The position numbers and the translations under genes are program-made. The notes below the pieces were generated by a model that was given only the letters and a program-made list of their open reading frames with translations, was not told where the DNA came from and ran no database searches. 64,000 nt of DNA from Gammaproteobacteria bacterium (lineage in GTDB: Bacteria > Pseudomonadota > Gammaproteobacteria > Steroidobacterales > Steroidobacteraceae): the NCBI GenBank assembly GCA_025358295.1, contig JANYJY010000068.1, positions 1 through 64,000 on the forward strand, in the 5' to 3' direction. Of this stretch, positions 59,365-64,000 are shown piece by piece; positions within the stretch are counted from its first letter, which is position 1, and each line of letters opens with the position of its first letter.

Positions 59365-59569
59365 CAATGTGCCCTCTGTAAAAGCCTCGTGGGGTGGTTC
59401 GCGCACTTGCATTCGTGGATAGAGCATCGAGCGGCAACGATTTGCCGCTTGCGGCAGCAACTTTGGCCGAAGATTGCCGCCCGCAATGCCGGTCGGCCGC
59501 TTCGCATCTCGCCCGGATTGAACGAACACCGCATTGCTTGGCCCGTGTGCACTTGAGTTCTCTATCCTT

Positions 59570-59588
59570 AGCAGCAAGCATTGCTGCT
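59570..59588. promoter_or_regulatory. perfect palindrome upstream of the carrier-tmpA-tmpB operon
   Basis: AGCAGCAAGCATTGCTGCT has eight-base arms around a three-base centre and ends five bases before a TATAGT box (59593-59598), about 110 bases before the carrier ATG. The position fits an operator. The rest of the 334-base gap (59365-59698) shows no gene or further repeats. Confidence 0.45.
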
Positions 59589-59698
59589 CTCCTATAGTGG
59601 CAAGCAGGTTTTGTGCCAACGCGGCAGTGGTCCACCAGTCGTTCAAATGAGATGATGGCAAAAGAACAACACTCGCCGCCTCTTTTCAGGGAAACTGT

Positions 59699-61054
59699 AT
59701 GACCACCGCGCCCGAACTCAGGGTAGGATCTGATGCGGGCGCAGCCGCCGCAACATCTCGGTCGCTGGTGTTTCGGCAAGCCATCACGGTACTGCTGATG
59801 TTCGGGGGCTATGCCGCCCTGTATTTTTGCAGGGCCGACCTATCGGTGGCCACGCCGCTCCTGGTGGAGGAACTGGGCAAGCACGGCGTCAGTCATGCGG
59901 ACGCCATCGTTCGCATGGGGGGCATTACCTCCATCGGGGTGCTGGCCTACGCGGTGGGCAAGCTGTTTCTGACCGGATTGGGCGATTTCTGGGGAGGCCG
60001 GATCAGCTTTCTCATCGGCTTGGCTGGAGCGACCGCCTTCACGATAATGTTCGCCTCCGGGCTCAGCGTGCCGCTGTTCACCACTGCCTGGATAGGCAAT
60101 CGACTCACCCAGTCCCTTGCATGGGCCGGACTGATCAAGGTCTCCTCGAAGTGGTTCAACTTCTCATCGTACGGAATGATCATAGGCATACTCAGCATCA
60201 GCTACCTCGTCGGCGATGCTGTGGCACGGCAATGCATGGGAATGTTGATCGATCATGGCTATGGATGGCGTACCTTGTTCTTTTTTGCGGCTGCCGTCGC
60301 AGCGCTGTTCTTGGTCGTGAATTTCCTTTTCTTGCGGGAGTCACGCGCCGACGCGGGTTACACCGAGGCAAAGCCCAACCCGCTCAATCTGTTTGCGGCG
60401 TCGGAATCTCCGCCGCAAAGTATTGGCGCACTATTGCTGCCGCTGCTGCGCAGCCGCGCGTTCCTGCTGGTTTGCCTCCTATCCCTGGGCTGCACCATCA
60501 TTCGCGAGACTTTCAACGCTTGGACACCGCAGTATTTGAGCGACTACGTTGGTTACAGTAAGGGGGAAGCCGCACGTATGAGCGCGATTTTCCCGGGTGT
60601 CGGCGCCGTGTCGGTGCTGGTGACCGGCTGGCTCAGCGACCGGCTCGGGGTCAATGGGCGCGCGTTGATCATGTTCCTGGGATTGAGCGCGGCTGCCGCG
60701 GCCCTGCTGGTGTTGATGACCATGCGTTCCGGCTCATCCGGCTCGATGCTGCCGATCATCACCATTGGCGCCGTGGCATTCTGCCTGCTCGGCCCCTATT
60801 CATATCTCGGCGGCGCGTTCGCGCTCGACTTCGGCGGCAAGCAGGCGGGCGCAGCCTCCTCGGGAATCATCGACGGGATCGGCTATCTCGGTGGAGCGGC
60901 GGCGGGATATATTGTCGCCGAGATCTCCATATCCTTCGGCTGGAAGGGCGTGTTCGTGGGATTGGCAGGGGTCAGCGCTGTGGCCGCGCTCGGGGCCGGA
61001 TGCCTGTACATCTTGAATGCGCGAGCAGCCGCGCGTGGAACGCATCTGCCATGA
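59699..61054 (+). CDS. MFS transporter, organophosphate:phosphate antiporter (GlpT) type; probable phosphonate carrier
   Basis: The 451-residue protein has 12 predicted helices and OPA-type features: GYAALYFCRADLSVATPLL in helix 1 and conserved RLTQSLAWAGLIKVSSKWF around helix 4. OPA carriers handle phosphorylated or phosphonate compounds. It leads an operon with an Fe/2OG oxygenase and a PhnZ-like enzyme; its stop overlaps the next ATG. The setting suggests import of 2-(trimethylammonio)ethylphosphonate or another phosphonate. Confidence 0.85.
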   Translation: MTTAPELRVGSDAGAAAATSRSLVFRQAITVLLMFGGYAALYFCRADLSVATPLLVEELGKHGVSHADAIVRMGGITSIGVLAYAVGKLFLTGLGDFWGGRISFLIGLAGATAFTIMFASGLSVPLFTTAWIGNRLTQSLAWAGLIKVSSKWFNFSSYGMIIGILSISYLVGDAVARQCMGMLIDHGYGWRTLFFFAAAVAALFLVVNFLFLRESRADAGYTEAKPNPLNLFAASESPPQSIGALLLPLLRSRAFLLVCLLSLGCTIIRETFNAWTPQYLSDYVGYSKGEAARMSAIFPGVGAVSVLVTGWLSDRLGVNGRALIMFLGLSAAAAALLVLMTMRSGSSGSMLPIITIGAVAFCLLGPYSYLGGAFALDFGGKQAGAASSGIIDGIGYLGGAAAGYIVAEISISFGWKGVFVGLAGVSAVAALGAGCLYILNARAAARGTHLP

Positions 61055-62202
61055 GTGAGTCCGCCTCGGTAAAACACTTAAGAACATCACCCGATACCCT
61101 CGGCATCGAATGGTCCGACGGCACCTCGAGCGAATTCGCCAGTCTCTGGCTGCGTGACAATCTAAGCGAAGACCGCGATGCACACAGCGGCCAGCGATTG
61201 ATCGACATCGCGGATCTGCCGCAGGATCCGAAGATTCAGTCCGCCGTGACCCTGAATGGCGCGATTCGGATCGAATGGGAGGCCGAATCGCGCGCCGCAT
61301 CGTTTGATATCCGCTGGCTGCGTGCAAATTCCGAGACTCGCGCCGGCCGCCCCGCGGAGCGCAGACCCAAGTTCTGGCTCGAGGGCGCAAGTCTCGACGC
61401 CGCGTGCGACTTTGCCTGGGCAAGATTTTCCGACGCGAAAACAGATCGGCCGCTGCGCGCCCGGTGGCTATCGCGGCTGTTGCGGGACGGCATCGCATTC
61501 CTAAGCGAAGTGCCTGCCGCCGATGCGGGAATTCTCGAGGCGGCAGCGCTCACGGGAAGGGTCTCTGAGACCAACTACGGCATGGTATTTGATGTGAGGT
61601 CGGTCGCGCAGCCAGAGAATCTGGCTTATTCCGACCTTGGCCTTGGCTTGCACACGGACAATCCCTATCGCGAGCCGGTCCCCGGGTTTCAGGTGCTGCA
61701 CGTACTGATAGCGTCGCCCGACGGCGGAGAGAGCATTTTCGGCGACGGCTTGGCCATTGCAGAACACTTGCGCACCACGTCTCCCGAAGCGTTTGCCGTC
61801 CTGACGAGGACGGCCGTGCCATTCTTATACCGCTCCAAAGATGCCGAGCTTTACGCCGAGAGGCCGCTGATCCAGTTGACTTGCGACGGTGAAGTCAGCG
61901 CGGTGCATTACAACAGCCGATCGATCGCGCCGCTGCATCTTGCCGCCCGCGAAGCACATCCGTTCTACTCCGCTTACCGGCGCTTTGCCGCATTGCTGCG
62001 CGATCCGCGGTTTCATTTGAAATTCAGGTTGCGGGACGGGGACCTCGTGGTCTTCGACAACCAGCGCACCCTGCATGGCCGCACTGCATTTTCATCCGCG
62101 AAATTCCCGCGGCATTTGCGCGGCTGCTACCTGACCCGCGACAGCGTGTACTCCGAAGCCGCTATGTTGCGGCGTGAATTCCCCACGGATCTATCCACAT
62201 GA
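61051..62202 (+). CDS. tmpA: Fe(II)/2-oxoglutarate oxygenase of the gamma-butyrobetaine hydroxylase family, probable TmpA
   Basis: The 383-residue protein has a BBOX-type N-terminal domain (about residues 15-95) and a TauD-type catalytic domain with the iron triad His201-x-Asp203 ... His342. The N-terminal domain has WLRDN but lacks the cysteines that bind zinc in gamma-butyrobetaine hydroxylase. TmpA hydroxylates 2-(trimethylammonio)ethylphosphonate at C1 and is homologous to BBOX, not to PhnY. The partner tmpB overlaps its end by four bases, which favours TmpA over carnitine or trimethyllysine metabolism. Confidence 0.75.
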   Translation: MSESASVKHLRTSPDTLGIEWSDGTSSEFASLWLRDNLSEDRDAHSGQRLIDIADLPQDPKIQSAVTLNGAIRIEWEAESRAASFDIRWLRANSETRAGRPAERRPKFWLEGASLDAACDFAWARFSDAKTDRPLRARWLSRLLRDGIAFLSEVPAADAGILEAAALTGRVSETNYGMVFDVRSVAQPENLAYSDLGLGLHTDNPYREPVPGFQVLHVLIASPDGGESIFGDGLAIAEHLRTTSPEAFAVLTRTAVPFLYRSKDAELYAERPLIQLTCDGEVSAVHYNSRSIAPLHLAAREAHPFYSAYRRFAALLRDPRFHLKFRLRDGDLVVFDNQRTLHGRTAFSSAKFPRHLRGCYLTRDSVYSEAAMLRREFPTDLST

Positions 62203-62750
62203 CACCGACCGACGAAATTCTCGCGATTTTTCACGCACGCGGCGCCGGCGAATATTTCGGCGAGCAAGTATCGATGACCGAACATGGCCTGCAGGCCGCT
62301 TACTTCGCGCAAATTGCCGGTTCGACGCCGGCACTGGTCATTGCCGCTCTGCTGCATGACATCGGGCACCTGGTCGAAGAGGTTCCGAGCGACATTGCCG
62401 ATTGGACGTTCGATGCGCATCACGAACGGGTCGGCAGCCAGTGGCTGGCCAAGCGATTCGGCCCCGAAATCTCCGACCCGGTGCGGCTGCACGTCCCCGC
62501 CAAGCGCTATTTGTTGGCAACGGATGCCGGCTATTTTGCGAAGTTGAGCCCGGCGTCGGTGATCACATTGAAACTGCAAGGCGGCCCGATGAACGCACAA
62601 GAAGTACTGAGCTTCGAGACCGAACCATTTTACAAAGATGCCGTGCGAGTCCGCCAATGGGATGATCAAGGCAAGGTTCAGGGACTGAAGACTCCCTCCG
62701 TCGGCGACTATCGAGAGCTGATCGAGGCATTGAGCGCGCCGGGCGACTGA
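62199..62750 (+). CDS. tmpB: HD-domain mixed-valent diiron oxygenase (PhnZ family), probable TmpB
   Basis: The 183-residue HD-fold protein has His29, the His53-Asp54 pair in LLHDIGH, His57 and further His/Asp, and keeps the Tyr19/Glu22 pair (YFGE) that in PhnZ gates the diiron centre. Such enzymes cleave the C-P bond of 1-hydroxyphosphonates with O2. Pairing with the BBOX-type oxygenase indicates (R)-1-hydroxy-2-(trimethylammonio)ethylphosphonate as substrate, giving glycine betaine and phosphate. The ATG overlaps tmpA by four bases. Plain PhnZ activity on hydroxy-2-aminoethylphosphonate is the alternative. Confidence 0.78.
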   Translation: MTPTDEILAIFHARGAGEYFGEQVSMTEHGLQAAYFAQIAGSTPALVIAALLHDIGHLVEEVPSDIADWTFDAHHERVGSQWLAKRFGPEISDPVRLHVPAKRYLLATDAGYFAKLSPASVITLKLQGGPMNAQEVLSFETEPFYKDAVRVRQWDDQGKVQGLKTPSVGDYRELIEALSAPGD

Positions 62751-62780
62751 CTGCCGCTCGGCAGCCGGTGCAGTCAGTCG
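62744..62780. terminator. inverted repeat at the end of tmpB, possible bidirectional terminator
   Basis: CGACTGACTG (62744-62753) and CAGTCAGTCG (62771-62780) pair perfectly around a 17-base GC-rich loop; the left arm includes the tmpB stop. The T run is poor, so termination would be weak or aided. It lies in the gap between the convergent tmpB and M28 peptidase genes. Confidence 0.4.
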
Positions 62781-62911
62781 CCCCTGCTTTCCCTGGGGTG
62801 GGTTAGGTTCTCTCAACCGTCATTCCCGTGCTCTTGACGGGCTACGAGAATGTATAACCCGATCATTACGGCGACATGGCGGCGATATTGTCTTTTGATA
62901 ACCCTCCATCC

Positions 62912-64000
62912 TTAGTCCACGACGCGGATTTTCTGCAGCGCTGTCAAATACTCGAGCACCATCTCCAGGGGCACCGGACCATATTCCGCTACTAGTTCAT
63001 CGGTGATCTGCTGCACGTCGCGCGATCCGTCGGCGAAGTTCAGCGCCTCGTAGGCGTACTCCTCCCCGCCGCCCCAGTTGCCGTCGTAACTCAACAATTT
63101 AGGCATGGCAATGCCGGCCGCCTTGGCATGATCGGCAAAATAGTCGTATCCGAACACGACCAGCTGCCCGCGTGGCTGCGCGCGACGGCGGTACTTGTGC
63201 GCATGCTCTACTTGGGCAGATACGGCAGAGCGCATTGCGGCCGGCCGAGCGCCGGCGTTGAACGAATCGAGCGAGGCGAGCACTCCGCGTTCGTACTCCT
63301 CTCGCGGCCCCTCGGGCGCCTGTCGCTCCATGTCCGAGACCTCGCGCATTAAACGGCCGATTGCAACAGCCCTCTGCGTTGCAACCACATCGTGAGACGA
63401 GAAGTTCGCGAGAAAATAGCCCGCGGCCGCGCCGATGAAGGCCGCACGCTTGAGCTTGGTCGGATCGATATTGGCCGCCGAGTCGAAATTGGTGTGGATA
63501 TAGCGATCGGGCCAGTCGTTCAGATAAATGGCCGGGATGGCGAACGATGAATCCTGATAGACGTCGTGGTCGCTGCCCATGGTGTACGCCGAGTACATCG
63601 CACGCTGGGGCTCCCTGCCGCCCTCCGGCGCGAGCAGCGGATGTTCGGCCGAGTCCGTCGCCGCGAATTGATACGACTCCTCGTTTACCCACGCTGCGAA
63701 CGCCCAAGCAACGTCATGTACGAACGACGGCAAGCTCCTCGGCCCGCGCGTCACATGAAATACCGCCTTAGTTTCCGGACCACCCCCGACCATGTCCATG
63801 TGCACCACGGCCTTGATACGTTTGGCAAATTCCGGCCTGGCATTCAGCAAAGTCACGGTACCTTCGACTTCCGGCGGCCAGATGAATCGGATACTGCGAG
63901 CCGGCCGCGCGAGCCGGCCGTCGCCGATCATTTTTTGCAGGGTCCGCGCCGCTTCGAGGATGGTGACGCAGCCGCTCGCATTATCATTGGCCCCCGGACG
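62912..64000 (-). CDS. M28-family metallopeptidase, C-terminal part only
   Basis: The reading frame is open to the right edge; 363 C-terminal residues are visible. The M28 aminopeptidase core shows PGANDNASGCVTIL at the edge, HMDMVGG near the start and PDRYIHTNFDSAANID, with His/Asp/Glu metal sites. A long C-terminal part after the core (about 150 residues) resembles that of larger M28 proteins with DUF4910-like or related tails. The protein is probably exported, but the N-terminus is missing. Confidence 0.85.
   Translation of the reverse strand, partial: RPGANDNASGCVTILEAARTLQKMIGDGRLARPARSIRFIWPPEVEGTVTLLNARPEFAKRIKAVVHMDMVGGGPETKAVFHVTRGPRSLPSFVHDVAWAFAAWVNEESYQFAATDSAEHPLLAPEGGREPQRAMYSAYTMGSDHDVYQDSSFAIPAIYLNDWPDRYIHTNFDSAANIDPTKLKRAAFIGAAAGYFLANFSSHDVVATQRAVAIGRLMREVSDMERQAPEGPREEYERGVLASLDSFNAGARPAAMRSAVSAQVEHAHKYRRRAQPRGQLVVFGYDYFADHAKAAGIAMPKLLSYDGNWGGGEEYAYEALNFADGSRDVQQITDELVAEYGPVPLEMVLEYLTALQKIRVVD

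Follow-up and report, generated by a model that had tools for sequence, protein, structure and literature searches.

The window analysed here, a stretch of 64,000 nucleotides from a gammaproteobacterium of the Steroidobacteraceae (assembly GCA_025358295.1, contig JANYJY010000068.1, positions 1 to 64,000), contains at 59699-62750 three consecutive open reading frames (ORFs) on the + strand, which probably form a dedicated unit for the uptake and cleavage of 2-(trimethylammonio)ethylphosphonate (TMAEP) or of a very close quaternary-ammonium phosphonate. Their products are a carrier of the major facilitator superfamily (MFS) of the organophosphate:phosphate antiporter (OPA) type, an Fe(II)/2-oxoglutarate (2OG) oxygenase similar to TmpA, and an HD-domain oxygenase similar to TmpB and PhnZ:

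59699..61054, + strand: OPA-type MFS carrier P0001, 451 aa, candidate phosphonate importer (Pfam MFS_1, TIGR00881, PDB matches)
61051..62202, + strand: TmpA-like Fe(II)/2OG oxygenase P0002, 383 aa (Pfam TauD and GBBH-like_N, NCBIfam, PDB, trees)
62199..62750, + strand: TmpB/PhnZ-like HD-domain oxygenase P0003, 183 aa (Pfam HD, NCBIfam, PDB, ligand set)

An earlier reading of the same DNA (the original prediction) had proposed an oxygenase gene overlapping an HD gene at this site, and the three genes are indeed joined by two ATGA stop/start overlaps (61051-61054 and 62199-62202; the start of the P0002 gene is taken as 61051, and the mechanical ORF list puts it at 61000). In the proposed pathway the carrier would import TMAEP, probably in exchange for phosphate, P0002 would hydroxylate C1 of TMAEP, and P0003 would break the C-P bond to yield glycine betaine and phosphate. 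The identity of the substrate, the direction of transport and the antiport are what we infer here; the enzyme pair itself most likely works like TmpAB, judging by sequence, and as a divergent lineage, since both proteins miss the cut-offs of the respective NCBIfam equivalog models.

The TmpA-like and HD-domain oxygenases

The search of PDB identified TmpA (6npb, 255 bits) as the best match of P0002, followed by DfmD (136 bits) and human BBOX (129 bits), and among the NCBIfam models TmpA again scored highest (TmpA: 357.1 bits; BBOX: 298.2; trimethyllysine dioxygenase, TMLD: 173.1). A search with the AlphaFold model of P0002 (mean pLDDT 89.7) likewise reported TmpA chains first (6npb_A, E 5.5e-42, TMq 0.87), the best human BBOX chain being next after them (E 3.0e-33, TMq 0.80). 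In a first tree (85 of 87 rows, two short rows omitted) P0002 belongs to a clade of 34 rows (100/100), itself nested in a group of 59 rows that contains TmpA (94/98, just below the level starred by the tree tool). A second tree was built from 50 selected rows (41 of the 87 plus 9 plasmid rows, with bacterial BBOX-like references included, and DfmD and 45 others omitted), and there the lineage of P0002 groups with the TmpA rows (97/92, 33 rows), apart from BBOX and TMLD, and a long branch of 0.91 changes per column leads to it. The other homologue in the genome is a TMLD above its cut-off (310.3 vs 268.3). By HMM, PDB and predicted-fold scores P0002 is closer to TmpA than it is to either BBOX or TMLD, and the trees favour the same placement. 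The operon also shows that the TmpA group extends beyond the curated NCBIfam model.

The available portion of PMC9296572 describes N187, N287 and R288 as the phosphonate ligands of TmpA, N191 and N293 as the residues used by human BBOX, and aromatic residues as holding the trimethyl group. At the three ligand positions of TmpA the alignment places N, Ser and R in P0002. The first is invariant in the lineage (N in 35/35 rows), as is the third (R in all 33 readable rows, with two gaps). At the positions of the trimethylammonium cage, which we take to correspond to residues 177, 181, 194 and 366 of human BBOX, P0002 and TmpA alike have Y, F, Y and Y. P0002 also carries a DNPYR motif and the arginine of an NxR motif, which are missing in all eight rows on the BBOX/TMLD side (two of them have Arg at the DNPYR position).

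P0003 matches TmpB in PDB with 138.4 bits, ahead of PhnZ (118.7 bits), and in NCBIfam the Phn-HD model TIGR03276 (202.7 bits, cut-off 214.6) slightly exceeds the TmpB model NF049941 (196.7 bits). It retains the H-HD-H-H-D metal ligands, the HVxAKRY motif and the YxxE loop, the last of which is described for PhnZ and TmpB in the available portion of PMC8177086. Among characterised proteins P0002 is thus closest to TmpA and P0003 to TmpB, and the pairing of these two enzymes put forward in the original prediction is supported. The phylogenies, which it had proposed as a check, bear it out in part. For the oxygenase both trees side with TmpA, but approximately unbiased (AU) tests do not reject a grouping with BBOX/TMLD (see below). 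For the HD protein the PDB ranking points to TmpB, but the tree (62 of 63 rows, one truncated row omitted) is poorly resolved and places TmpB and PhnZ outside the clade of P0003 with low support; moreover, the nearest neighbours of P0003 include two HD proteins with no tmpA in the 15 kb read. Because of these two properties of the tree, the substrate assigned to the P0003 step rests mainly on the partner oxygenase. One of these two HD proteins (L046:7642-9116) is encoded beside phnX (311 bits, cut-off 220), and a gene for a TIGR03364 FAD oxidoreductase lies 5 kb away.

The OPA-type carrier and conservation of the operon

The remaining gene had been named an OPA-type MFS carrier, an assignment that the family matches and the residues of the phosphate site uphold. 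The best NCBIfam model for P0001 is TIGR00881 (PgtP type; 157.9 bits, under the cut-off of 407.75), and the best PDB matches are SLC37A4 and then GlpT. When carriers of this type are aligned to E. coli GlpT (one over-long ORF, L065, whose frame is broken in the source, is included), the residues that presumably form its phosphate site are retained in every readable row (R45: 24/24; K80: 26/26; R269: 28/28), while H165 is replaced by Tyr (28/28), and Glu and Asn occupy positions 270 (28/28) and 273 (27/28). By sequence, then, P0001 is an OPA-type carrier with the phosphate-site arginines of GlpT. A precedent is offered by AepP of Pseudomonas putida BIRD-1, which according to the available portions of PMC8316502 and PMC9311074 is an OPA-type carrier needed for the use of 2-aminoethylphosphonate (2AEP) as nitrogen source and the sole 2AEP transporter when it serves as carbon source, with an ABC system as the main route under phosphorus limitation. 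Gene order and this precedent suggest that in the present operon a single carrier would take the place of an ABC system.

We examined 36 tmpA loci whose gene is at least 50% identical to that of P0002 (the others are 53-77% identical to it, and two loci are fragments of one genome). In 28 of them the carrier gene immediately precedes tmpA, and in one it lies downstream of the HD gene; five lack it and two reach the contig end. The HD gene adjoins tmpA in 32 loci, three run into the contig end and one is without it. Because the carrier in 28/36 and the HD gene in 32/36 loci hold these places, the arrangement is a conserved operon and not a chance neighborhood. In the genus (23 genomes) the carrier was found in 12 and a tmpA more than 50% identical in 15: 11 genomes have both, G001 has the carrier and the HD gene without such a tmpA, four have tmpA only and seven neither (Fisher p 0.009, a descriptive value, the genomes being related). 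In a class-wide sample of 369 genomes a carrier match at E 1e-70 was obtained in the source genome alone.

Among the more distant tmpA-like genes 24 of 49 have an adjoining P0003-type HD gene, and none of these 24 pairs has a carrier of the P0001 type in flanks of up to 6 kb. Nor was an OPA carrier seen beside the TmpA/HD pairs of the ten plasmid regions examined (among 25 records listed of 40; three are without annotation). The literature searched yielded neither an OPA carrier associated with tmpAB nor a TMAEP carrier of any kind. The pairing of TmpAB-type enzymes with a one-protein OPA carrier thus looks new, P0001 is a candidate TMAEP carrier, and the oxidative breakdown of TMAEP would also occur in this lineage of soil bacteria, which are uncultured.

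The source genome (4.02 Mb, 74 contigs, 97.5% complete, in which PhnJ was not found) carries the operon on contig C14, and its nearest named relatives are metagenome-assembled genomes titled Gammaproteobacteria or Proteobacteria, with those of L071 and L073 titled Steroidobacteraceae. In the region 59400-62950 we found one promoter-like site (1.2 expected), which is located within the carrier gene; of the six terminator-like sites detected there (3.2 expected, sd 1.9) none lies 3' of the operon.

Substrate, transport and physiological role

Several observations weigh against the assignment of the operon to the import of TMAEP by antiport and its cleavage, and they are best considered with the alternatives they touch. 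The alternative that survives best concerns the transport step only and is compatible with the enzymes proposed above: the operon would scavenge phosphorus, and the carrier would be a proton symporter or a facilitator independent of inorganic phosphate (Pi) instead of an antiporter. We consider this possible, though we lean against it. It would agree with the five lineage loci devoid of the OPA carrier, and in L074, which lacks it, another MFS protein precedes tmpA (L068 looks similar by eye), which implies that the type of carrier is replaceable. Like the five loci, four genomes with tmpA and no carrier at E 1e-30 (G002, G005, G006, G019) count against the main proposal. Against this alternative stand the GlpT-like residues of the phosphate site, the AepP precedent with its nitrogen and carbon use, and the lack of a Pho box near the operon (pattern matches in the whole window: 2, with 3.5 expected), the last being a point against the TMAEP assignment as well.

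Use of TMAEP for carbon and nitrogen is at least as likely as its use for phosphorus, because the carrier would return phosphate and the genome has a glycine-betaine-type locus. In the latter (contig C12 of G000) a GbcA-like gene (501 bits) lies beside SoxB (661.7 bits, cut-off 529.45), and glycine betaine may be used through these enzymes; it must be counted against this step that the GbcA-like protein fails to reach its cut-off of 670 and that the GbcA model has 16 matches in the genome. By analogy to AepP, it is plausible that P0001 would supply TMAEP as a source of carbon and nitrogen, perhaps against Pi. We speculate, tentatively and with more doubt than conviction, that the operon spends phosphate: the carrier would swap external TMAEP for the phosphate released by the HD oxygenase, the cell would live on the carbon and nitrogen of glycine betaine, and the exchange of H165 for Tyr and the Glu at position 270 of the carrier would fit a quaternary ammonium group. 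If this is true, organic phosphonate of the soil would be turned into free phosphate. The operon offers a direct way to ask if phosphate can be given off, and not stored up, by a pathway of phosphonate breakdown. Beyond the window, 4 kb downstream of the operon, lies a Rieske gene (C14:66766-67983; L049:16766) that at first looked like a linked glycine betaine oxygenase. It was dropped as a part of the operon because it matches GbcA more weakly than the C12 gene (286 vs 501 bits) and its position is not conserved: L029 has the gene there, but the near relative L028 does not.

According to a second alternative, which we regard as unlikely, the chemistry is the same and the pair cleaves a different phosphonate, e.g. 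a less methylated or longer amino-phosphonate. This would agree with the scores of P0002 and P0003 below both equivalog cut-offs (NF049936: 357.1 vs 400; NF049941: 196.7 vs 300), and the long branch to the P0002 lineage points in the same direction. It also agrees with the Ser that replaces N287 of TmpA in P0002, at a position where 20 of the 33 readable rows of the lineage have N and 13 have S (P0002 included; two gaps), and which in other TmpA-like enzymes adjoining HD genes varies between N, S, D, T and E. The conserved cage and the residues equivalent to N187 and R288 argue for TMAEP, as does, more indirectly, the glycine-betaine-type locus. As for DNPYR and the arginine of NxR, both are present in a sister class of oxygenases associated with another HD protein (described below), and therefore they mark a wider group and not TmpA alone.

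The weakest alternative, that P0002 hydroxylates gamma-butyrobetaine or trimethyllysine in carnitine-type metabolism and has an HD phosphohydrolase as its neighbour by chance, is very improbable: it can invoke the BBOX score, the GBBH-like_N domain and AU tests in which forcing the P0002 lineage (p 0.154) or two narrower groupings (p 0.082 and 0.067) together with BBOX/TMLD is not rejected, but it is opposed by the want of the DNPYR motif and NxR arginine on the BBOX/TMLD side, by the regular adjacency of the HD gene and by the separate TMLD of the genome.

Related loci and known systems

Since these G+C-rich loci yield many spurious ORFs, we name a neighbouring gene only if it is backed by homology or by a family search. 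In nine loci titled Acidimicrobiia, Acidimicrobiales, Acidimicrobiaceae or Actinomycetota we found single open frames of 758-826 codons that join an AlkP-like, an HD and a TmpA-like domain (Pfam was run on L100 and L111, and L099 has part of the AlkP match in another frame), and elsewhere an AlkP-family gene stands alone beside the pair. Another recurrent pair is formed by the sister class of oxygenases and its HD protein:

L095, L099, L100:4312-6711, L101, L102, L106, L108, L109, L111:4375-6696: fusions of AlkP-like (PF01663), TmpB-like HD and TmpA-like domains
L083:4627-5463 (Chloroflexota contig), L133:6670-7515 (Labrenzia plasmid): stand-alone AlkP-family gene beside tmpA/tmpB
L112:4853-6614, L110:5607-7374, L103:5917-7662 and others: sister oxygenase/HD pair

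The fusion, of which no report was found in the literature searched, supports the partnership of TmpA and TmpB; it suggests a first step of ester hydrolysis, and it is possible that it represents a three-in-one enzyme degrading phosphonate esters. L111 contains in addition a gene for a PotD-like binding protein, with homologues in L095, L098, L099 and L102.

Most of the 22 rows of the sister class exhibit the motif TNFG...SPRLD and Asp at the position of N187. Their HD protein was detected by tblastn in 19 of the 22 loci, in 13 of which its gene immediately follows the oxygenase gene, whereas the remaining loci searched all lack it. Its structural model matches PhnZ and TmpB, and myo-inositol oxygenase weakly (E 0.14), and a profile alignment places Tyr at the position of the YxxE Glu of TmpB-type proteins. 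The two constitute an uncharacterised pair, whose HD protein is predicted to be PhnZ/TmpB-like but devoid of the YxxE glutamate. Two loci, L067 (1193-4611) and L073 (1278-4612), have both kinds of oxygenase/HD pair around one OPA carrier. In G001 (L042, contig C17) the HD gene lies next to the OPA carrier gene without an intervening tmpA, and an SPRLD-class oxygenase is encoded elsewhere in the genome beside a PotF-like gene (L146).

An MttB-like methyltransferase gene (L070:3111-4733; TIGR02369, 387 bits, cut-off 525) lies near tmpA and divergent from it, as judged by eye also in L066 and L077, and all three loci are without the OPA carrier. A carnitine 3-dehydrogenase-like gene (L073:9222-10679; 563 bits, cut-off 592) is found 1.5 kb beyond a tmpA/HD pair. 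Three oxygenases (L113:8425-9438, L114:4954-6018, L119:6001-7056) form a subclass in which three of the cage positions are occupied by Trp, Ala and Met, and as the second of them scores 400.4 bits, against the cut-off of 400, the TmpA model admits proteins with another pocket.

The expectation that TmpA would easily be misread as an enzyme of carnitine biosynthesis proved correct, and in places such proteins are still so labelled. On a Phyllobacterium plasmid a TmpA (596 bits) encoded beside an HD gene is annotated as "gamma-butyrobetaine dioxygenase", with a BBOX score (417.0) just above the cut-off of 414.75. Among the TmpA proteins scanned two, L087 and L136, exceed the cut-offs of both models.

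Among known systems the operon is closest to TmpA/TmpB of Leisingera caerulea (6npb-6npd, 6npa), with which it shares the two folds, the cage positions, N187 and R288, the HD ligands, the YxxE loop and the adjoining genes; it differs in the modest identity of the oxygenases (37.2%), the Ser at N287 and the scores below both NCBIfam cut-offs, and three annotated plasmid TmpA loci (with an incomplete gene table) are without such a carrier alongside. With PhnY/PhnZ, which act on 2AEP, it has in common the HD oxygenase partner and the YxxE loop, whereas its hydroxylase is of the TauD/GBBH type and nearest to TmpA, and P0003 matches PhnZ less well than TmpB. BBOX shares the fold and cage of P0002, but lacks DNPYR and the NxR arginine, and the trees separate it from the TmpA group. 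The carrier belongs to the family of GlpT and SLC37A4 and keeps R45, K80 and R269, but carriers of its type depart from them in Tyr for H165, Glu at 270 (28/28) and Asn at 273 (27/28). AepP is, as far as the available portions of its descriptions go, likewise an MFS carrier of the OPA subfamily linked to the use of a phosphonate, with the phosphate residues of GlpT kept; its substrate, however, is 2AEP, its gene is reported to lie next to PhnWX, PhnWAY or putative catabolic genes, and its likeness to P0001 is taken from those descriptions.

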